Below, one piece after another: positions 880-34,163 of a DNA stretch of 64,000 nucleotides (positions within the stretch are counted from its first letter, which is position 1; each line of letters opens with the position of its first letter). The translations under genes and the position numbers were made by a program. Below the pieces are notes generated by a model. The model saw nothing but the letters and a program-made list of their open reading frames with translations. It had not been told where the DNA came from and ran no database searches. The stretch comes from Xestospongia bergquistia (taxonomy: Eukaryota > Porifera > Demospongiae > Haplosclerida > Petrosiidae), in NCBI GenBank assembly GCA_963965975.1, contig OZ014411.1:14648501-14712500 (forward strand). The letters run 5' to 3'.

Positions 880-1890
880 ATATTAAAAGTGGCTGATCTG
901 GTGGTTACATTTTGTGAAACAGTTATAGAAACTTCATCTTTAAAATGTTTTGCTACTACACCAATCAAGAGGTAACCCCCGTTATCTTATTGATTAATTA
1001 GTTTCTGATATAAATATAGAAATAAATTTATAGCAGAAAATCAAAAAGGTTACCAGAGCTTGTCTGTTGATTTTTTAAAGTTTTGACAATAGAAAATTTT
1101 GACAAAAAACGTACATCAAGTTATGGAAATTGAGAAGATGCTTTTGATTTACAAGCACAAGCTATTGTATTATTTGAAGATAATGTTATTATCCAACAAC
1201 TGAAGAAGTGTATGGACCTGATCTTGAGGAAAGGATTAATTAGATCATTACCTTATTTGGGCATATTTTAGATGATAATACAAGAAGCCACTTACTGGTT
1301 AGTTTATGTTTGTTACTATAGTAACCTGACCACACCTCCTTTAGAACCAGTCATTGCTCCTGTTAAAAAGTGAATTTTTTTTCACCAAGAGGAGGAGTTA
1401 CCATGTAGTAACAACATACAAAATAAATTAAACTAAACAGGTTTGCAAATAATCTTTAACTTGTCTGACAGGTTTTTAGTTGATATAATTGATAGTCCAG
1501 AGTTAATCCAAAATGTGTCTATTATAGGACATCATCATCATTACAAGGTAAGTGTTACATGTCAATATGTACATGTTTATATGTTTTGTTTGTTGACAAG
1601 TTTTTATTTAATTGAACAGACTCATCTTAATGTGTTCGTTGGAAGAAATAAAAATATGAGTTGTATAATTATATTAATAATTAAAGGAGTTCATCTCATT
1701 GTGATTAGTTAAGATATATGGATACACTTTTCACAGTACAAGAGGTTAGTATTTCAGATACCACCCCCTCAATAATTAACATGTAAATTCTAGCATGGAG
1801 TTAGTATAAAGTGTGTGCCCCTCTCATTAGTTCCACTTGATTCTGAAGACAAGTCATGTCTCATCAATGTATATGACACTCCAGGTCAGT
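880..1890 (+). pseudogene. EFTUD2-like (U5 snRNP GTPase) exon relics, out of order
   Basis: Several short stretches read as the spliceosomal GTPase EFTUD2/Snu114, which remodels the U5 snRNP. An exon at 880-971 with good splice sites encodes a piece like the late part of the protein ([19 protein letters not shown]). After it come N-terminal pieces: EEVYGPDLEE near 1203-1235, PLEPVIAPVKK near 1338-1370, SPELIQNVSIIGHHHHYK near 1495-1548, LIEQTH near 1610-1630, and HGVSIKCVPLSLVPLDSE running into VYDTPG near 1796-1885. The late segment lies upstream of the early ones. The pieces are interrupted by stops and a frameshift, and the P-loop region is damaged (HHHHYK where the family has HxHHGK). The reading is a rearranged, dead copy. 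Family assignment comes from remembered sequence patterns. Confidence 0.7.
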
Positions 1891-16176: not shown

Positions 16177-18626
16177 ATGTCACTCTCAAAACTTGGTGTA
16201 GCTCGCGAAGGTGAACTATTTTATATCACTAGTGCAATGCTTGACAGTATAAATACTATATATCTTTTACAGATCATGGGCCAGGTCGAAATATCATGAA
16301 TATTCTTAAGAAAAAACCTGACTTGATTGATTTGATGTCTGTCTTGTCTGAAATTCGTTCTGAGTGGGCTACAATTGGAACTTCCTTGAACGTGCCTGAC
16401 CAAGGATTGCTACATTTGAATATTTCTGACTCTGGGAAGCTCAATGCAACACTTCAAGCCTGGATTGATGGCTATGACAAGTATAGCCCAGTTCTTTGGG
16501 AAACAGTTCTAAATGCTATTGGAGGCCCAATTGTCAACAATGAAAGAATTTCACATAAAATAAGGAGTTATCTATGTAAAGACGAAATATATTTGAAGTA
16601 TATAGAAAGACATGATTTCACAATTTTTGGCTCAAGTAAGTTCTTCAGGAACACACAGTGAACAAATTGGCATTATCTGTTTGTTAAAGCTATTATACCT
16701 GGATGTAAAGGGCAAAACTAATAACACTTGATTATTACTACCACAATCTATATATAGTTTATGAAAAAAGGATGTTATTAGGATTTGATAGTAAACACTC
16801 TGTTACATCAAACCACATGAAATGATAGACTGCTTTCTTAATTGAGATGCTACAAAATCACGATTTGTTCATGACAAGTACTTTAAGTAGATTTTAGACT
16901 AATAATATTCCTTGCATGTCCAATGGATTTGGCAAAAATTTAGCACAGTATATATAGTGGCGTCTCCTTTTCTCTTGATCCTCCTGACACATTTATCTTT
17001 TATAAATAGTGTTATGTTGTAAGTAAAATATGGAAATTTATGTTTTGTTTTTATAATTTTGTGGTTTTGAAGATAATAAACTACACCACAAGCTTATATT
17101 ATATAATCATGAAATTAACATACCTTAAATTCTAGATTTGTAGTATGTTAAAACTTGGTCTCATCTCCAGACACCCACAAATTTGTAGCTTACATATTTT
17201 TCTTGAGGTATCATGATCATATGGTAATTGGTATATGCATTATCTGTAAAAAATCACTTGGACAGAGTCAGTGATGTATCATGATGTTACATTGACAAGA
17301 ATTTAGACTAAACACACCAGATAACCTTTGTTACATCAAACAATTTGGCATTTGGAGATGAGATTATAGTCAAAATTGTACTATAACCAAATTAAGAACA
17401 GAATAAAGTATAAAACTCACTAATTTTACTTAGACTCACAGTGAAGGTGAAGTATTTCATACCATTACTGTAGTGCTTGGCTGTGTAAATACTATTATAT
17501 CTTTTATAGGTCATTGGTCACATAATAATATCACAAAGATACTTCACAAAAAACCTGACCTAATTGATTTGATGTCTGTACTGTCTGAAATTCGTTCTGA
17601 GTGGGCTACAATAGGAACTTCATTGAATGTGCCTGACCAAGGATTGCTACATTTGAACATTTCTGACTTGGGAAAGCTCAATGCAACACTTCAAGTCTGG
17701 ATTGATGGGGATGGCAAGTATAGCCCAGTTTGTTGGGAAACAGTTCTAAGTGCAGTTGAGGGCCCTATTCTCAACAACGAAAGAGTTTCAATGAGAATAA
17801 GGCATTATCTACGTACAGATAAAATATATGAGAAGTATTATAACAAAGATGATTTCACAATTGTAGGCTCAAGTAAGTTCACTAATACCCAGTCAATGAA
17901 ATGGCACTGGATTTTTTTGTTTAAACAAGTATATCTAGGTATATGTAAAGGACGAAATTAGTAACAGTGGATGATTGCTGCCACAATCTGTTTACACAAA
18001 ATGATTGTTATTAGAAGCTTGATAGTGAACATTGCTACATCAAACCACATACTTGACTTGAAATGGCAGACTATTCTTTTAGTAGAACTTCCAATGCCAT
18101 TTATAATATATATACAAGTGTAATTGACAAATCAGATTGTGTTTTATGTATAAAGTACAAATTAATCAGGGATTGGTAAGTTTATTTTCTTAATTTTATA
18201 TTCATTATAGCTAATAATGTTAAAGTCATTTATTCGGAAGAACCTGAGCTGAAAGATTTGATGACAGTTCTGGTTGAGATTCAATCACAGTGGTCTACTC
18301 TGGGCACTGCACTTAATGTACCAGAGGTAATGCTACCAGTAACCCTACAAGGTGTTCCCAATGATGTGAAGCTCAAAGCAACATTGCAGGCTTGGATTGA
18401 CACCAGAAGCAGTCCAGTGAACTGGAAGACAGTTATTGAGGCAGTAGGTGGCCCTATTATCAACAATGAAAGAGTTGCTAGAGTAATAATACGTTACCTG
18501 TCTCAAGATGAAATATTTCATAAATATTATAATAAAAAAGGTTCCTATGGTGTATCTACAGGCAATAGTGAGCTCTTTTTATTTTTATCATTAATGTTGA
18601 TGTTTAAAAAATATAGAAACTCAGTC

Positions 18627-18672
<46 letters not shown>

Positions 18673-19011
18673 ATTTTCTTTGCAGATATTTTGACAATTA
18701 TTGACAAAAAGCCCGACATGATTGATTTAATGTATGTCCTGTCTCAAATCCAGTCTCAATGGTTTACACTGGGAACAGCACTGAACATACCACCTAACCA
18801 AGGGTTGTTACACCAAGATATTCCTATCAGTGCAAAATTAAATATCACCTTGCAGTTGTGGTTAGATGGTAACGGGAAGTACAGTCCAGTTACATGGAAA
18901 AGAGTTATGGAAGCTGTAGAAAGCCCTATTGTTAACAACAGAAGAGTTGGAGATGAGATACGATACTATTTGATGCGAGATGAAATATTTCACAAGTACT
19001 TGACATATTAG
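16177..19011 (+). CDS. Four tandem death domains, 480 aa, five exons
   Basis: Exons: 16177-16210, 16273-16635, 17510-17872, 18211-18567, 18686-19011. All junctions are GT-AG and every intron is phase 1, so the spliced frame is 1443 nt, or 480 residues and a stop. After a short leader (MSLSKLGVARE) each large exon encodes one death domain. Shared features are a first helix (DLMSVLSEIRSEW), the W-x-x-x-G-x-x-L core (ATIGTSLNV), L-x-x-W-I/L-D, a tryptophan in (S/N)PVxWxxV, and a last helix (NNERVxxxIRxYL). Death domains mediate homotypic complexes in apoptosis and innate signalling. No enzyme, membrane or ligand domain is present, so the product looks like a pure adaptor or scaffold. Domains 1 and 2 are very alike, including flanking intron DNA, so that duplication is recent; 3 and 4 are more diverged. 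A short alternative such as a DED is possible, but the W pattern favours death domain. Confidence 0.85.
18627..18668. repeat. (AT)n microsatellite in intron 4 of the four-death-domain gene
   Basis: A run of AT dinucleotides lies just before the polypyrimidine tract and acceptor of the last death-domain exon. Confidence 0.9.
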
Positions 19012-23529: not shown

Positions 23530-25200
23530 CTGAGACATTATTGTGAAATTATATGATATAAATACATATCTGTACATCTTCAATCCTCATTGTACCAATG
23601 AACAGTTACAACGAGTTCTAACGTTTTTGAAATTGACATCTCTACACAAATTCGACATCAAATACCTCTCTGCAAGTTGGAATTTTAAAAGGTTTTGTTC
23701 AAAATATTGAACTAGTATGACCTTGACTATCTACACTAAATGTGCTCTAATTAGCCAGTAAGGACAATGAACTTTGAACTTTATGAGAGAGATTATAATG
23801 TAGAAACTAATTATATAAATAGTATGGAGTGAGAGATACATAAGTTTCACATTTGCAGGATCTTAAATGAAAGTTGTGGTACTGGTACATCGCACTAGGA
23901 ACATTATACTTTTGACCACAACTTTATTGTCTCCTTTGGTATATTTGGCTGTCAACATCCTACAGTTTGCAAAAATTTTCATTCTTATTGAAAATTTGTA
24001 CAGAAAATATATATTCCAATTGGAATAAATTTCTAAAAACATGATTTATCTCATTAATTTAAAAAAATTACTTGCATTTTGTTCATTGTAGGACTATTTA
24101 CTTTACTCTGGGAAACATTAGACCATGTTATCGCTCTACTTATAACATTAAGAGGTGTTAACTATACTCTGTATGTTATTATAGCTAATGAACATTAGTG
24201 GTGTTAACTGTATATGATATAATACATTTGGTTGAAGGTGCAGTTAATTTTTAGAAGGATATAAACCATTGCTGTCTGCATTTTGAAAATATATTTGTAG
24301 CAGATTGATAATACTTCCTCTCCATACTGGTTGTTGAATGAAAGAAAGATTGGACCTTGTAAGTTGCATATATACATATGATTAAAATTTTCTTAATCAG
24401 CTACAGCCATGTGATATCTTCAAGAGCGTAATTATAGTAGTATATTGTAGATGAATATTACATGTTCATAGTAATGTTGTAGCCCAGAATTCTGAATGGT
24501 ATTTCGTAATGTGTATCATCTTTATTTTTAATTATTTTTATAATAAAATATCATAATTATCAGCATTATTTTTATAATAAAATAACATAATTATTAGCAT
24601 TATTGTAAGATACATTTGATTTAGACAGATTGTTGAGTAGAGAAATAATGAGAAAAGTAGAACATGTAATTAGATTAATGTGTGTAAACTGTCAACTAAT
24701 TTTAGTCAGTGCTAAGGAATACCAACTTAGTTGCTATGACAATTTAGGCATTGCTTATCAAGAAATTATTTCTTGCATGGCAATAAATATACTTTAACAT
24801 GATCTTCACAAACTATATCAGAAATTGTTACTCTATTGAGTTACTACATTTTGATTTTGTCCTCAGATAACACCTATTGTTTTAAGCTAATTTCTTAAAT
24901 AATAAACATGTACATAATACATTTTAAAATGTTTTAATCCTATTATTCCAATTTGAACTTTGAACTATGCTATTTACTTAAAATTGATTTTATAAATGTA
25001 TTACATTTTGGGTTGAAATTATAGGAACTAATAAAGAAATGTTGCTGCTGTTGGTACTGATCTACTACTTCAATTTTACCTACAGAACATAGTAATTATA
25101 GATGTTGATTCTACTTTATTTGTTTATTATCATCTTGTAGCTATATGTTTTGTATCACATTTTGTGTTTTTTTATTTGTAATCTCCAAGAATTAGGTATC
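23530..25200. other. Non-coding stretch, no gene seen
   Basis: AT-rich DNA between the NTHL1-like relic and the decayed copy of the ANK-ZU5-death gene tail. A local duplication of about 40 bp ('tttttataataaaatatcataattat.agcatta') lies at 24530-24605. Confidence 0.4.
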
Positions 25201-25510
25201 TTATATTAAACTTTTTATATTTAGGTTTAACAAGTGCTATCACCTATTTCTGATTGATGTTCAAATTAAGGTAAATTATATTTCTGATTTTTGAGTGCAA
25301 TGTCTGAACATGTGGATTAGTTATATGTTTTTTTTTACCCACTAGGAATAGATAATACCTGATCTATATATTAATGTTAGGAGCCATTGTTGATAATACA
25401 AAAAATTAAACTAGAGTGTGGACTTCATTTTGCACTTTGATTTTATTTTCTTTTTATATTTTATTCTTGTGTCAGCAGCCAGTCTTTGAAAATTTAAATA
25501 CAAAAAGGAA
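25200..25510 (+). pseudogene. Decayed copy of the last exon and 3'UTR of the ANK-ZU5-death gene
   Basis: The stretch follows 33955-34325 in order: 'ttaaactttt', then 'tttttgagt.ca.tgtctgaa', then a 'cactagga' acceptor, then 'aaactagagtgtgga', then 'tattttattctt.tgtcagca'. The membrane-anchor codons after the acceptor are mostly lost. It shows that the downstream gene once had a tandem neighbour. A stray 'atgttgctgctgttggta' at 25037-25054 may come from the same exon. Confidence 0.6.
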
Positions 25511-28452
25511 TTTCTACTCTATATAATGATGTAGTGAAGATAATGTGAACATATGAACTATAATAATATACATTATATGGATTTGTCTTAGAAATAGAGT
25601 ATAGATATGAAATTTAGAATAAGCAAGTTTACTGTATCAGAGAAACAAGACATATATGCACTGAACTATGGAGATCTTCATCTTCTAATTCTTCTGTTTA
25701 AAATTAGCTCATTGTAACAAGGAGACAACAAAAACTGTTAAATATACAAGACTGACGTTTTTAATGGATGAATGAATGAATGCAGTAGTTATTATAGGTT
25801 TCTCTAAGTCATTCTATGTCCTATTTATACTGATTAACTGTCTTGTGTCCACTTCTCTCTATGTCCAATTGGTCTATTTATCTTTAATCGTTAACATTAT
25901 AGTAACGCCCATCAAATTACTAGTGAAATTATATACGGCGTATATTCTCGTGACAACTTTTCAGTCTTCTTTCGTTGCACTCCTATTGGACGACTATAAC
26001 GTTTGCTGTCCTTTGTTTGCGTATATGAGCTGTTATCATAAACTATGGTAAGTACAATATACATAGTCTTATTACTATATCTTACTCTGCCATAAGTGAC
26101 GGGAAAGGACTGAGAACATTCAGCCTGCTTTGTTAGATGGATCATTTTCTGAGCATCCTAATAACAAAAAAAATTACCATATGCTATTATTTATTATTCA
26201 TATTAATAATTGTCTTTATTATTGCAATTTAAGTATTGCTCTCTCTAGCTACATGTATTTTTTAGTCTCGTGTTCAGATGTCCACTCACTAGTGGACATG
26301 AAACAAACTATTCCTGTAAGCATTGTTGTGCAACCCATTGATAATAATTCATATATTAACTGACTGATTGTCTTATTGGGTTATTTATCAACCTATCTAA
26401 TAGTTAACTTTATTTTGTGTAATAGTTCTAGTCTTTTTTTACTGAATTAAATAAAAGTACACTATATGCATCAGACTCCTTTTCTATATGTATGCACCTT
26501 GTTGAATGGAATGTTTAACATGTCCCAAGAAGTTAGACATGTTTAAAATAGGTTTTTCTTTTATATACATAGTTTATATGGACAGTTGTTGAAGAGTTTT
26601 TAGAAAATGTCAATTCTATTGTGAATATAGTGATAAGAAGCATGAATAACAATGAGAAGAATCCAATATTATTAAATTAACACTATAACACTATATAGTT
26701 AAAATGAATTTGAAAATTCAAACCAAACAGAATAAAGTAGACTCCATAATTTATCATGTTTGGAATCATCTCAAGTGTTTTAAATTATACAACTCTTATA
26801 AATTATTAGTTATACAACAATACGATACTTCTCATGTTTCTGCGGAAGGTCATGTACACTCTAGGGTCATTATCTGAATTTCATATAAGTCTAATATACA
26901 CTGCAAGATTGGAGTCTGTAATTTGTATAGATTGTGCTGTGTAAATCCAAGATTGGAGTCTGTAATTTGTATAGATTGTCCTGTGTAAATGAAGTCTAAA
27001 AATTCATACTGTGGTCTATGTCAAATAAAAAAATGTCAATAAATCAAGCAAATTTGTGGATAAATAGTACTACCAGATGTTAAGTAAACAGATACATGAT
27101 TGAAATAGGAACTACTACATATAACGTTATGTACCTGGAGTGTAGTATACTGTATGTTCAGAATAATCTAAAGAATGTCTGGCACACTGCACATGCCAGA
27201 CAAAAAAAAAGGCGAGTCTTATATTTGATAAACTGCTAAATTCTAATTAGTTGTTTGTTATCTGTTTGCCTACTCCCATTTCACCTACTTTCTTTCAACT
27301 CTGAAATGATCAAAAGTGCTGTTTCGCCTACTAAACATTAGATATCATGTGTTAAAATACACAGTTACATAATAGAAAGTATACATGTATTGAGTCATAC
27401 ATGATACTATGAGTGAAGGCAATAAATGAGCAAAATAGTTGTCTCTAATCCACAAACACAAATTACCTGTGCTCTAGACACAAATTCATATTACAGATTG
27501 TAATTTGTATAAAAATTGGAGTAGTGTTAATGTTAGGAAAAAAGTTGACAATTACTGTCAATTATTATTGCAATTATTGTTTTCCTATATTAATTTCATA
27601 AAGCTACAAGCTTTGCTTATATTAACAATATAATGTTGAGCAAACAGTGCTAAAATGTGGCATGATGGTACGGATTTATAATCTATATAATCATTGTAAA
27701 ATGTACCACATTTGTAGCCAAAATATGACATTATTAGACAATATGATTATTAAAAGTATTTGTAATCAGTATTATCATAATATTATTCATCCCTATCTAA
27801 TAGTACACCAATATTGTGGCAGAGTCTACTACTATAACTTGTAGACTCACTATATACAAGGAATCTTGCTTAGACCAATAGGCTCTTAACTTGCATTTAA
27901 TATTATTGTTTTTCCAATTAAAACTGCACTATTCTAAGTTGCTAAGCCACTATTCTAAGATATAGTTTGACCAGTGGTTTGTATGATTGAATAATGTGGA
28001 CTAATAAATTGATATCATTGTTTTAAAGCTTATTCAAAACTTTCTTTTTGTGTTTACTATTTAGTTTCAGTTATTGTTGTGTTAAGGCATTGTCTACTGT
28101 TCTTTTTACATTGCTACATAATACTCTCTATACTGTACAAGTATCAAGGAGTTATGGAACATCATTTGTTTGGAATACCTTTAAAATTAACATCATAAGT
28201 TTTTGACTTGTTAAGTTATACTAAAACCTGATGCAATGAATAAGTTAGATATTACACTGAGTAAAGATTGGAGATGTATTAGTCATTTTTCTCTTAAGAT
28301 TGTATGTACAAAGTTTTATTATTAAATGATTAAATAATTTTTAGACTTTAGATATCATTGAAGTAAACTCATCGATATGTTTCTGATAATAATTTTCAAA
28401 TGTATATTTAATTTCAAGAAATTAGATTACTATTGTTTTGTTCTTACATTAG
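25510..28452. other. Region that should contain the 5' end of the ANK-ZU5-death gene
   Basis: No exon here can be proven. One candidate first coding exon is 26298-26315 (ATG and six codons, then a GTAAGC donor, phase 0), which would join the phase-0 exon at 28453. A tandem duplication of about 44 bp lies at 26904-26990 ('agattggagtctgtaatttg' twice). Other open frames, such as the one near 25776-26051, are hydrophobic, but I see no matching family or splice context. Confidence 0.35.
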
Positions 28453-31400
28453 GATAATAGTTTAATTGAATCTGCTAGGAAAGGAGATTTGCCTGGAATA
28501 AAAGATGCTCTCTTAAGAGGAGCTAATGTAAATGCTACAGATTTGGTAAGGCTACTTAATTTATTGTACAAGCTAAGAAAATACAAATGAAGTAGCTAGT
28601 TTGAAATTTATTTAAATATTAAGAAAACTATTTGGTTCTGCCTTTCTTGCTATAAAAGTCTTTGTGTTCTAAATCACTAAGAAATTTGTGCAAGTTTCCA
28701 AACTATTATTGTTAAGCTAATAATTATCTGGTATTGCTTAAGCAATGGATACTTACAGATTTAATATGATTTCTATATGTTAGTACTGTTAGTGGTCTAA
28801 TTTGACAGTACATGGTTTGTTTGATATTACAATAAAACAATGTGTGGTCCTTCATTATGTAAGATATGAAGGCAATACAGATCTTGTTGAAGTATTAATC
28901 AACCTGAAAGAGACCTTTACTCCTCGGGGAGCTATACAAGTTATTTATTGACCCTAAATGGAACAATCTGATTTGTCAATTTGGCATAGCATGGTACAAG
29001 TGTAGAGTATACACATAAGTCAAAGTAGATACATGATTTATACACCAATGACTGCAGGCCAGAGATGTATAAATTATGTAGCTAACAAGCCTTCACATAG
29101 TTTACACAAGTATAAAAACCTTGCTGAGTCAACTACCATAGATAAATGTGCTTTATTGTAAATATATCTGTTAATTATTCATATTTATAATGAACCATAC
29201 CTATCTTTGGTGCAATTGTACCCCTTTTTTATGATATTAACAAAATTTGTAATTTTAAAGCACATTCACTAACCAATTCTCCTCCTTACTAGACACTGAT
29301 AAATTAATTTTATGAATTTTTAATAATGTGCAAATGTGCTACTTTTTCATTGGCATTAGAGCTGATCTGTGCCAAGAATTATCTGTCTTTTTAGGAATAT
29401 AGAGAAATAAATAAATAAAATAAATAAATACTTCTGCTCTTAAAACTTAAAATACTTTGAGTAAATTATTTAAAGTGATTTTATACTAAAATGTTGACCA
29501 AATGTTACTTTTGGTTTATAAAATTAAACAACTTCCAAAGAGAAAAAGTGGAGGGTAGCGAAGATTGAGAGTAGGAAAATGAAATATTGTTACAGTGTTA
29601 GTACCTAGAGGATTTTCCAGGAGGAGTTTGGTGGGATAGAATGTCATTTGGAAAAAAGAGAGATTCCTTCATAAATTTGAAGAGGAAAATGATTTGAGAA
29701 GTAGCTCTACAAGTTAATAAGGAAATTGGATTAAAAAGTTATAGGTTGTCCTCATGGTTTGAGAGCAGTTTTAGAGCACTTTTTTAAATGAAAACTTCTG
29801 GACATTTCAACACTTTTGTGATAACACAAAAATATTTATATGAGTAAAACACAATCAAGTATAGATGAGTTTAGGATGAGAGGGGTAGAGAAGATAGAAA
29901 GGACTTACTTTTCTTGAGACTAACATGCAAAAATCTTATTTTCTATCCACATGCAGTTGAAGATTTTTATATGACCATTAGCGGAATTTTTCCAGCTACT
30001 TGTTCATAAGCTACAACAGAAATCCAACCCTTTCTCTCAAATATTCTATTTAAAAACTTGTAATACATTTGTCTCTAATTGTAGAAGATTTCAGATCTAG
30101 TGGGATCTCTCTATTATTTACATTTTATATTCTTGCTGGACTATTCAATAAGTTATTCTGTTTCTAGGTGTCTTCTAGAAAATAAAAATATTGTTTTATG
30201 TGTCATTATTTACTGCATCCATTCAAACTGATACTTGCCATGCATATAGCTTTAACACCATCTGCCACCTGCATCTTTTATATAAGGTAAAGAAGACTGA
30301 AGACAATGTTGCCTATTTTATTTAAAGTATTTAGTAAGGTATCATGCAGTGACAGCATGGCAGTTGCAAACAAACTAACATCACTACAGAAATTGCAGTT
30401 AGGTCTCTACACTTCAGTTTTTTCATGTTTTACATACAACATAGTATAGTGACGGTAGTAGAACATATATAGTGTATAGTGTGAGTTAGTAATTGTCACT
30501 ATGTGTACGTTAACTGTAAGTCATTGCTGATTTTAGTGTTCAATGTGACATATAATATTTAATCTCCTTAGGACAAACAAGCAGCGCTACATAGAGCTTC
30601 AAGTAACGGTTATACTGAGATAGTTCAGTTACTCCTGCAATATAATGCAGATACTAGTATTCGTGACAAGGTCAGTCTGTGTTGTCTTTATTCATAGTCT
30701 ACTCTTACAAAGGATGGTAATACTGCATTGCATATTGCCTGCAAGAATAGTCATATAAATGTTATACAATACTTGCTATCTCAAGGAGCAGATATAAGTA
30801 TTAAGAATAATGAGGGTAAGACTCCGTTAGATGAATGTCAAGACACAAGCAAAGAGGAAATTGTCAGTCTTGTCTCTGAGTACAATCCAAAACGAGGTGA
30901 AGTATTAAACAAAAACTATGTAGTACGCTTGCTTGCTTGCTTTGTAATCATATAGCCTTGCACGATGTATCTAAATGGAATATTGAATACCTCAATGAAG
31001 AGCAGGTTTTTGAGAAACCAGAGTATGGAGTCAAGTTTGTCATTCCGCCGTCGTCAGTGGAAATAGGGCAAGAAGTCAAAACTGAAGTCAAAGTAGTTGC
31101 ACCAGAGGAGTCAGAGATCATCCTCCCTCCTGAGGTTGAGCTTGTTAGCTGTTTCTACAAAATTAAAACAACAGAAATATTCTCCAAACCTGTTGATCTT
31201 CATCTCCAGCATAATGTTGAGCTCAGATCACAAGAGGAAAGTCAACAGCTAGCATTTATCAGAGCTAAAGGACCACCACCTTACAAATTTGAGCTGTTAT
31301 CAAATGAATATGATCAAGTGTTCAGACCTTATGACAAGTATGGTGTCATAGGAATCTCCGATTTTTGTCTCATTGCTATTGTCAAAAAAATAAAGGATGT

Positions 31401-34163
31401 ACTATTTCGACAGTCACGTCACAGTTATGTGATGACAGTCTTTTTCAAGGAGAAGAGGAAGTTTTGTTGGGAAATACAAGCAGTGGTCACAAAAAATCTT
31501 GGACCTTTTCTTGAGGTATGTAGACATTATGAAAAGAGAACTACAACACTATATTACCACTCCATACATGTTCTTTTGCCTGTATTAGAGAGTGAACACA
31601 GAGAAACGTTTTGAAAATTGGAAAAGGATACATCCAGTTGCTATTGTTGATCCTGACATTAATGAAGTTACAATTGCTAATGAGTGTTATGACATTAAGC
31701 CAATGATGAATCCATTTCAAGTAAAGCCCTAGTTGATGTTGTGAACTTAAATTTTTGTATTGTTTAAGCTTTCTAGGAAGATCATTGATCAATATCAACC
31801 GGGCACTGCTCTACCTTGCTTAAACTTTATAGTTTCTTTCAAAGATAAGAAAGAATTCACTGATCTAGAACTTACTTTTAGAGGAAAAAGTCAACAGACA
31901 AATTTTGTAATTCCTAGTTATGAATTGCAGCAAATAAAGGAGACAACAAGTTAGTGTCATTAAAGTTAGAATATTCTTGTGATTTAATTATTGCCATATA
32001 AAATATTGGCTGAGCTTTGAAATTATATATATATATATATATATCATAATGAGAAACATTTGAAAAGGAGTGTCAGTGTCAGTTCTATATGCCAATCTGA
32101 GAATTTAAAAGACTATTGCTTGACAACCATATGATAGAGCCATAGTAGTAGGTTAGCATGGTGAGGTATTCAACAACAACTATGTAGTAATCCTACTTGT
32201 TTGATTTCTTATTATTTAGTTTTGGAAGATGTGTCTAAATGGAATATTGAATACCTCAATGAAGAGCAGGTCGTTGAGAAACAAGGCTATGGAGTCAAAT
32301 TTGTCATTCCACCATTATCAGTGGAAAAAGTAACAATTCAGGTCAATGTAGTTGCACCAACAGAGTCAGAGATCATCCTTCCTCTTGATGTTGAGCTTGT
32401 TAGCTGTTTATACAAGATTAAAAAAACTGGAAAATTCATTAGACCTATTAAGCTTCATCTCCAACACAATGTTGAGCTCAGATCACAAGAGGAAAGTCAA
32501 CAGCTAGCATTTATCAGAGCTAAAGGATCACCACCTTACAAGTTTGAGCTGTTATCAACTCAATATGACCAAGTGTTCGTACCTTATGACAATTATGGTG
32601 TTGTAAGAATGTCTGATTTTTCTGTCATTGGTATCGTCATCCGAATAATAAAAGGTGTTTTATTTCGGCAGCCATCTCGCAGTTATGTGATGACAGTCTT
32701 TTACAAGGAGATAATAAAGTATTGTTGGGAAATACAAGCAGTGGTCACAAAAAATCTTGGACCTTTTCTTGAGGTATGAAGCCAAAATAAAAAAATAAAT
32801 AATACCACTGTATACATTTTCCCTTGTCTATATTAGAGAGTGAACACAGAGAAACGTTTTGAAAATTGGAAAAGGATAGATCCAGTTACTATTGTTGATC
32901 CTGACATTAATGAAGTTACAATTGCTAATGAGTGTTATGACATTAAACCAATGATGAATCCATTTCAAGTAAAGTACTAGTTGATGTTGTGAACTTAAAT
33001 TTTTGTATTGTGTAAGCTTTCTAGAATGGTCATTGATCAATGTCAACCAGACAGTGCCCTACCTTCCTTAAAATTTGAAGTCTCTCTCAAAAATGAGAAG
33101 GAACTCACTGACCTAGAGCTTACTTTTAAAGGAAAAAGTCTACAAAAAAAGTTGGTAATTGCTGTTTGTCATTTGCAACAACAGCAGGAGACAACATGTG
33201 AGTGACATTGAAGATAGAATATACTCACATTTTTAGATTAATGTCAGCAAAAAGATGTCAGCAAAAATACTATAGTAATATAAAGAAATGTGTGTTTCTT
33301 TTGTTAACATAGCTCACTCTGCCAGTACTCCTTCCACCAATAGTCATCCTTCTATCCATATGCCATCATCATACCATCGATTAGGAATTTCTGATAAATT
33401 ATTATGTGAGTTATGAAATGTTCAAGTTAATTGACAATTTTGTCATTGAGTTAATTAAGTCATCTTTCTTATATTCACATTATAGGTAAAGAGCCTAAGA
33501 GAAAACACCTGATGACAATACTTCATGAAATTAGGTGTAAATGGGAAATTATTGGTGAACAACTTGCTGTGAAGGATGATTATCTAAAGTCTTTTGAACA
33601 CAACGTGGCATATAATGATACTATAAATCTCTCAAAAGTTCTTCAGGTTTGGAGAAATCAGAGAACTTGTGAAATCTCTTGGAGAAAGATCATCACTGTT
33701 GTCGAGGACCCACCTGTAGAAAACAAAGCAGTAGCTGAGAAGATATTTTACTACTTATCAAGACCTGATGTGAAAAATCAATATTTTTATCAACCTGGTA
33801 AAGTTAAAAATTGCATTTAATAATTGTCCCTGTGTCACTGCATAGGTCAAGAGATTACCACTTTTAATTCTCCTCCTCCAATTTATCAAGAGCCAATTAA
33901 GACGAAAGGTATAATTATATAGTTATAATGTTAAATAAGAAAATTTGATATCTTATGTTAAACTTTCCTTATTTTAATTTAATTAATGCTATTGCTTATG
34001 TCTGTTGTTGGCATTTAGTTAATTAATATTCTAATTTTTTGAGTACATTGTCTGAATGTTCTTTCTTTACTCACTAGGAAAAGATGGTAGTTGGTTTATG
34101 CTGCTGTTGGTAGCCATTTTTGTTGCTGTCATAGCCTATTTTATATACATAGCAATAAACTAG
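28453..34163 (+). CDS. Ankyrin, two ZU5/UPA-like units, death domain and C-terminal TM protein (5' end not found)
   Basis: Thirteen exons: 28453-28545, 30572-30670, 30713-30896, 30956-31515, 31589-31720, 31769-31949, 32220-32773, 32837-32968, 33017-33197, 33313-33405, 33486-33797, 33846-33908, 34078-34163. Phases agree at every join and give 889 residues plus a stop. Order: about three ankyrin repeats (ALHRASSNGYTEIVQLLL, ALHIACKNSHINVIQYLL); ZU5 (GVKFVIPPSSVE); a following UPA-like region over three exons; a second ZU5/UPA-like copy; a Ser/Pro linker (STPSTNSHPS); a death domain with its W-x-x-I-G-x-x-L core; and a final hydrophobic helix (WFMLLLVAIFVAVIAYFIY) ending three residues later, typical of a tail anchor. 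ZU5-UPA-death order is known from UNC5, PIDD and ankyrins. The doubled unit and the tail anchor are unusual. Likely a membrane-tethered signalling scaffold; the start is missing. Confidence 0.8.
30671..30712 (+). other. 42-nt intron in the ankyrin region
   Basis: GTCAGT donor and 'cttacaaag' acceptor. Removing 42 nt joins RDK to DGNTALH and restores the ankyrin spacing exactly, so the intron is real or recently so. Confidence 0.7.

Follow-up and report, generated by a model that had tools for sequence, protein, structure and literature searches.

UNC5 receptors combine a ZU5 domain, a UPA domain and a death domain (DD) with a transmembrane (TM) segment in the membrane topology TM-ZU5-UPA-DD, and in UNC5B the ZU5 module restrains the death domain. 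The full domain order of PIDD is LRR-ZU5-ZU5-UPA-DD, beginning with leucine-rich repeats (LRR). A contact between the ZU5 and death domains of UNC5B has been described (PMC3210808), and the accounts of PIDD in PMC3210808 and PMC3482391 give LRR, two ZU5 domains and DD, with self-cleavage after each ZU5 domain. Ankyrins are described as ANK-ZU5-ZU5-UPA-DD, with ankyrin repeats (ANK) at the head (PMC5135030). Two ZU5 domains ahead of a death domain are already known from these accounts of PIDD and ankyrins. Here we analyze a gene at positions 28453-34163 in a 64,000-nt stretch of the genome of the sponge Xestospongia bergquistia (146 Mb, 21 contigs), hereafter the window, which covers bases 14,648,501-14,712,500 of contig 1. 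Ankyrin repeats, two successive ZU5-containing units, a death domain and a hydrophobic tail are confirmed in this order at a single locus, as an initial annotation of the stretch had proposed.

The 13 exons join to an open frame of 889 codons plus TAG, with no internal stop (Table 1). All 13 have an AG acceptor, and all 12 that precede the last one have a GT donor. A cassette of three exons, D, E and F, occurs twice, measuring first 560/132/181 nt and then 554/132/181 nt; these lengths, like the exon number, are exactly as given in the initial annotation. The protein sequences of unit 1 and unit 2 are 76% identical (220/288 aligned residues), with DNA identities of 86-87% in the D exon, 98% in the E exon and 79% in the F exon, and the two ZU5 exons lie 1,267 bp apart. 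Separate genes for the two units, which would have undone that annotation, appear to be contradicted by the 270-nt junction intron and the matching phases. Both ends of the cassette are in phase 1, so that the frame is kept whether the gene contains two cassettes, one or none.

The initial annotation counted PIDD among proteins with one ZU5 unit, which disagrees with the two self-cleaved ZU5 domains described in PMC3210808 and PMC3482391; that ankyrins have two agrees with PMC5135030. The window gene resembles PIDD in having two ZU5 domains before one death domain, and a Ser or Cys after Phe at the cleavage position of both units. It differs in its ankyrin repeats in place of LRRs, in its hydrophobic tail, in the absence of a detected UPA domain, and in the doubling of the whole three-exon cassette, whereas in PIDD the ZU5 alone is doubled. 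A Pfam scan of the 889 residues, from a model that lacks its 5' end, found no LRR. With ankyrins the gene shares the order of ankyrin repeats, two ZU5 domains and a death domain, but ankyrins have 24 repeats and the model only a few (three ankyrin-type exons and one relict), and ankyrins have neither the hydrophobic tail nor E and F exons between the two ZU5 exons. It does not have the canonical ankyrin ZU5-ZU5-UPA cassette that shares one UPA, and tblastn of the window found no convincing ankyrin stretch further upstream on the same strand. An ankyrin gene with repeats plus that cassette was not identified in the nine sponge species considered in PMC5135030. As in UNC5, a ZU5 module and a death domain lie beside a membrane helix, but here the helix is C-terminal, ankyrin repeats are present, no extracellular domains were seen, and ZU5 similarity to UNC5B is weak.

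Related sponge repertoires have been described. Lineage-expanded sponge ZU5 proteins with a possible role in defence (PMC3482391, published in 2012) are likewise an expanded ZU5 group. Shuffled death/TRADD-N/ankyrin proteins are described in Amphimedon (PMC8195603), and 128 DEATH genes in a sponge, with NACHT-Zu5 among early-animal architectures, in PMC12909245. The doubled order ANK-(ZU5-E-F)x2-death-tail was not found in the literature searched, which comprised titles, the starts of abstracts and passages, with supplements and most subscription papers outside.

The window gene has many relatives in the same genome, with which it forms a large family. A genome search with unit 1 as the query scored 134 of 383 candidates and yielded 157 matches, and one with the death tail scored 150 of 808 and yielded 161; counts based on these matches are lower bounds. 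At least 66 close ZU5-exon places were found, among them the window's two units, which have one death exon in common; in 60 of the 66, a family death exon follows 0.3-3.5 kb further downstream. A D/E/F cassette followed by the family death exon is also the order in the ANK-ZU5-death-tail family of this genome, with matches to exons J and K in only some of the paralog loci. Among the 103 ZU5-exon places in the matches listed, all pairs other than that of the window are at least 3.2 kb apart. None of 32 paralog loci read directly (loci carry L numbers) has a second cassette within 1.5 kb upstream, and on the downstream side a further ZU5-like exon, divergent and about 1.5 kb away, was seen in L038 alone; it is absent from the 103-place set. 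The whole-cassette repeat is therefore unique to the window locus among the places compared. The gene itself, however, is one of many.

The locus L038/L047 was considered as a second case of the doubling and rejected, because its additional ZU5-like exon, which lies about 1.5 kb downstream of the D exon start, is of another type (33% in tblastn, E 8e-12, no Pfam match). In this region (L038:3071-3376 and L047:1501-3864, on contig 6), an ANK-ZU5 cassette is followed by the divergent exon and then by a 788-aa open reading frame (ORF), which has a weak Roc match, below the Pfam cut-off, as well as a short stretch that is death-like; they are possibly part of a second double-ZU5 or ROCO-type gene. 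Oddly for a family exon, the truncated ZU5 match at G000:C1:15771085-15771447 (-) is contained in an open frame of 1791 aa.

The heads of the family proteins look swappable. In four of the 32 paralog loci (L018, L020, L024 and L028), the place upstream of ZU5 that ankyrin exons take in other members is occupied by a death-type exon, and the one in L018 matches Pfam Death with 25.2 bits. At least 10 ankyrin-like stretches lie upstream of ZU5 in L049 and L012 together, whose status as a single gene was not shown.

The domain labels of the initial annotation held for ZU5, weakly in unit 2, and for the death domain by way of a family profile, but not for UPA. Ankyrin repeats give a strong Pfam match in the 889-aa product. 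The ZU5 domain of unit 1 scores 30.6 bits within the whole protein and 23.8 alone (cut-off 21), and that of unit 2 alone 14 bits (E 0.064), below the same cut-off; the D exon of unit 2 lacks three residues present in unit 1 and in the other 12 aligned units. Pfam ZU5 was matched by all 14 family units in a scan at E <= 1, the alignment comprising 14 of 34 units. Alone, the window death exon scores 12 and 16.7 bits against Pfam Death, below the cut-off of 22.6. A profile of 13 of the 28 extracted family death exons matches FADD (E 1.3e-5), and 11 of these 13 match Pfam Death at E <= 1 (best 3.4e-6). An AlphaFold2 model of the death domain is all-helical, with a mean predicted local distance difference test score (pLDDT) of 58, and its top Foldseek match is FADD, at an E of only about 1. 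Assignment of exon I to the death-domain superfamily is supported by these profile matches.

What the initial annotation had called UPA-like has the position and length of such a domain. Pfam UPA was not matched by any of the 14 units at E <= 1, and in hhalign the unit's second half scored 10.2 against UNC5B UPA, lower than the shuffle median (11.6, from 60 shuffles). The ZU5 half against UNC5B scored 15.8 (E 0.078), also within its 60 shuffles (median 11.8, maximum 19.8), and because even this half lies inside the shuffle range, the single UNC5B sequence is a weak yardstick. By eye, our impression is that the strand pattern of the second half is UPA-like. Genome searches for UPA and FIIND were empty, but so were those of 14 control genomes, which makes them uninformative. 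A sequence search of the unit and of the 14-member profile against solved structures did not match UNC5, ankyrin or PIDD, and a search for relatives in a set of 5.8 billion proteins gave 929 candidates, none at E <= 0.001. The C-terminal hydrophobic helix, by comparison, was borne out: the 19-residue Kyte-Doolittle mean reaches 2.98 at residues 870-888, the strongest hydrophobic stretch of the protein, the next best outside the last 40 residues reaching 1.69. It is the single C-terminal helix seen; the N-terminus lies outside the model, where a signal peptide is still possible.

Trees and identity tables were based on 32 of 46 loci and the two window units. Left out were distant loci (L001, L002, L006), one with a truncated D exon (L042), the window itself (L009, L026, L039), and loci that are the same genes as others (L008 as L028, L040 as L022, L041 as L019, L043 as L014, L044 as L015, L045 as L013, L046 as L023). 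The best paralog identities are 89% (D exon) and 83% (F exon) for unit 1, and 88% and 86% for unit 2. The lowest synonymous divergence (dS) of the D exon is 0.17 for unit 1 (to L036) and 0.20 for unit 2 (to L017), against 0.26 between the units, and the best D, E and F trees do not place unit 1 and unit 2 as sisters. Over its last 60 nt, the junction intron shares 95% identity with L011 and 93% with L010, L017 and L031, but 78% (46/59) with the gene's own C-D intron. The window death exon is closest to that of L022 (90%). Because in the D and F exons each unit is at least as close to paralogs as to the other unit, and because the junction intron resembles two joined paralog introns, a mosaic that arose by unequal recombination between family members is likelier than a simple self-duplication. 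A recent simple self-duplication is weakened by the same paralog-level distances and junction intron, but not formally rejected.

The E exon follows a different pattern. Over this exon and the next intron the units differ at 6 of 180 aligned positions, compared to 129 of 795 elsewhere (Fisher p 5.7e-7, with sites treated as independent), and the E exon is nearly as close to L010, L012 and L016 (95-98%). Based on the few mismatches and this near-equal closeness, the tract is likely a product of gene conversion. The two stretches, 31589-31768 and 32837-33016, are 97% identical.

Past reshuffling of the locus is shown by a decayed family 3' end, which has no open frame for the helix, and by a relict ankyrin exon with 83.6% identity over 55 nt to an ankyrin exon upstream of the L022 gene. 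A further two-part layout was seen at L029:1250-1317 (gene orientation), where about 70 nt resembling the start of an F-H intron lie directly upstream of a D exon, as in the window's junction intron, without preceding cassette exons. This stretch is possibly the footprint of a similar recombination; L029 was rejected as a second doubled gene, as D, E and F exons were not found in the 1.5 kb upstream.

As one explanation of these data, with about an even chance of being right, we propose mosaic gain of the second cassette in a gene for a tail-anchored sensor or adaptor. A second copy of the central three-exon cassette would have been acquired from another family member by recombination through the phase-1 introns that bound the cassette, with an F-H intron joined to a C-D intron, and the frame would have survived because recombination ran through these introns. 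By analogy, the protein is most likely a tail-anchored, cytosolic death-domain sensor or adaptor. The ankyrin repeats would be the sensor, binding a ligand or partner, and the ZU5 module or modules would hold the death domain inactive at the membrane, like the ZU5-UPA-DD unit of UNC5B. Upon binding, the freed death domain may assemble a FADD-like or caspase-recruiting complex, and the second cassette may act as an additional latch and as a spacer between sensor and death domain. The gene would then be a variant within an already known class of cell-death or immune proteins and not a new system.

Several observations weigh against this proposal. Approximately unbiased (AU) tests do not reject the units as sisters (p 0.155 for D, 0.287 for F and 0.35 for E), so that an older self-duplication, blurred by conversion, is still possible. 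The E exon of unit 1 is closest to that of unit 2 (98%, followed by L012 with 97%). Similarity of the gene's own C-D intron to its counterparts in the paralogs is only 72-87%, and for this reason the intron of unit 1 may be the odd one. The UPA label is not supported by the sequence, and the function of the doubled protein rests on analogy. No start codon was found in the exon model 28453-34163: exons A-C contain no in-frame ATG, and an in-frame stop precedes exon A at its acceptor, so a 5' exon is missing from the model. With the donor patterns tried, the closest ATG exon that fits by splicing is a weak candidate, with no homology support. Finally, unit 2 may be decaying, considering its three lost ZU5 residues and the high ratio of nonsynonymous to synonymous divergence (dN/dS, 1.2-1.4) of its F exon to the five paralogs nearest by dS.

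Over all paralogs the median dN/dS of the F exon is 0.89 for unit 2 and 0.47 for unit 1, and judging from this difference unit 2 is under weaker or different constraint than unit 1. For the D exon, the ratio between the units is 0.48 (0.126/0.263), compared to a median of 0.30 for 421 paralog pairs; paralog medians include only pairs with dS between 0.05 and 1. The fast change of unit 2 and its ZU5 score below the Pfam cut-off would fit a locus without a working doubled protein, whether a family member in decay, a pair of overlapping transcription units or a false join in the assembly. The model without start codon, the relict ankyrin exon and the broken family 3' end upstream point in the same direction. 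We regard this as improbable: all 13 exons are open with intact splice sites, the units seem to differ too much at synonymous sites (0.22-0.26) for two alleles falsely joined, and the 270-nt gap resembles only intron ends and would leave little room for a gene end and ankyrin exons.

The two cassettes could alternatively be used as exon groups from which transcripts take one, the other or both, resulting in isoforms that differ in ZU5. All four cassette combinations are open (889, 600, 598 and 309 aa) and splice sites are intact in both cassettes, but phase symmetry characterizes the whole family and follows from the manner of cassette gain, and we consider such use unlikely. Gain of a second cassette by a tail-anchored sensor or adaptor is preferred over both possibilities.

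As an alternative to be taken seriously, each ZU5 domain might self-cleave, at Phe-Cys in unit 1 and Phe-Ser in unit 2, as PIDD does at its two sites. Cleavage would leave the C-terminal fragment, which includes the death domain, held at the membrane and make the ankyrin part detachable; the doubling would add a second step. According to PMC3210808, CARD8 and NLRP1 are cleaved at SF/S, and PIDD at HF/S, once behind each of its ZU5 domains; the acyl shift can start from Ser, Thr or Cys, and replacing the residue ahead of Phe in CARD8 had little or no effect. The window sites read Asp-Phe-Cys and Asp-Phe-Ser. The aligned position is Ser (15) or Cys (17) in 32 of 34 units, preceded by Phe in 31 and by Leu in one, and a ZU5 His is invariant in all 34. 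This His aligns with that of the PHC of UNC5B, and His252 of CARD8 is kept in UNC5B as His624 (PMC3210808). Of three distant ZU5 loci of the same genome that were tried, L002 and L006 have Phe-Ser, and L001 did not align. However, a similar Ser/Cys swap occurs in one other of 186 columns (33/34 units), and the pattern may be structural. The site is Gly or Val in 2 of 34 units, and most units have Asp where PIDD has His ahead of Phe. UNC5B keeps the His and is not described as self-cleaving in the part of PMC3210808 consulted, and PMC3482391 gives a C-terminal CxH motif for the ZU5 superfamily. The site was placed by sequence; the AlphaFold2 model of the ZU5 exon, from two window sequences, had a pLDDT of 32 and was not used. 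Taken together, self-cleavage is doubtful, if slightly less so than alternative use of the cassettes. Quite unlikely is the wider proposal of a recombination-built, membrane-tethered PIDD counterpart with an ankyrin head and two self-cleaving ZU5 modules (Phe|Cys and Phe|Ser), shedding its sensor in two steps so that a death-domain stub stays behind at the membrane. Its family would, on this view, consist of self-cleaving death-domain sensors that have swappable heads and recombine rapidly.

The Ser/Cys site makes ZU5 self-cleavage, including PIDD-like double cleavage, directly testable. If the doubled protein is made, it would show how a large death-domain family can try out new layouts by recombining phase-1 cassettes, and the one-unit relatives and the two-unit gene would form a natural pair for asking what a ZU5 module contributes.

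Table 1. Features of the gene and of related sequences (window positions, unless a locus is named).
Feature	Position	Strand	Remark
Decayed family 3' end, J-K region and beyond	25190..25702	+	67% over 564 columns to L040
Candidate (weak) start exon	28236..28301	+	22 codons, phase 0 end before GT
Exon A, ankyrin-type repeat	28453..28545	+	
Relict ankyrin exon	28850..28904	+	inside 2-kb intron; no adjoining acceptor or donor seen
Exon B, ankyrin repeat, 33 codons	30572..30670	+	
Exon C, ankyrin repeats, phase 1 end	30713..30896	+	
Exon D1, 560 nt, ZU5 domain of unit 1	30956..31515	+	Pfam ZU5 above cut-off
Phe262-Cys263 of unit 1	31363..31368	+	aligns with PIDD/CARD8 ZU5 cleavage site
Exon E1, 132 nt	31589..31720	+	
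Exon F1, 181 nt, phase 1 end	31769..31949	+	
Junction intron, 270 nt	31950..32219	+	first ~70 nt F-H-like, last 60 nt C-D-like
Exon D2, 554 nt, ZU5-like domain of unit 2	32220..32773	+	
Phe550-Ser551 of unit 2	32618..32623	+	same aligned position as cleavage site
Exon E2, 132 nt	32837..32968	+	98% identical to E1
Exon F2, 181 nt, phase 1 end	33017..33197	+	
Exon H, Ser/Pro-rich linker	33313..33405	+	
Exon I, death domain	33486..33797	+	family profile matches FADD; Pfam Death in members
Exon J, short linker	33846..33908	+	
Exon K, hydrophobic helix and stop codon	34078..34163	+	
Death-type exon upstream of ZU5	L018, L020, L024 ~443-800; L028 ~900-1174	+	

Neighbouring ORFs in the window match IgGFc-binding and Sushi domains above the Pfam cut-offs and EGF-like domains below them. 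Four death-like exons follow each other upstream of the gene (16311-16601, 17548-17841, 18237-18530 and 18706-18999, all +), with 25-34% identity to its death exon; the second and third, taken alone, have no Pfam Death match. They probably represent a multi-death-domain gene. A lone ankyrin-like stretch of 29 aa lies on the other strand, at 13317-13231 (-).

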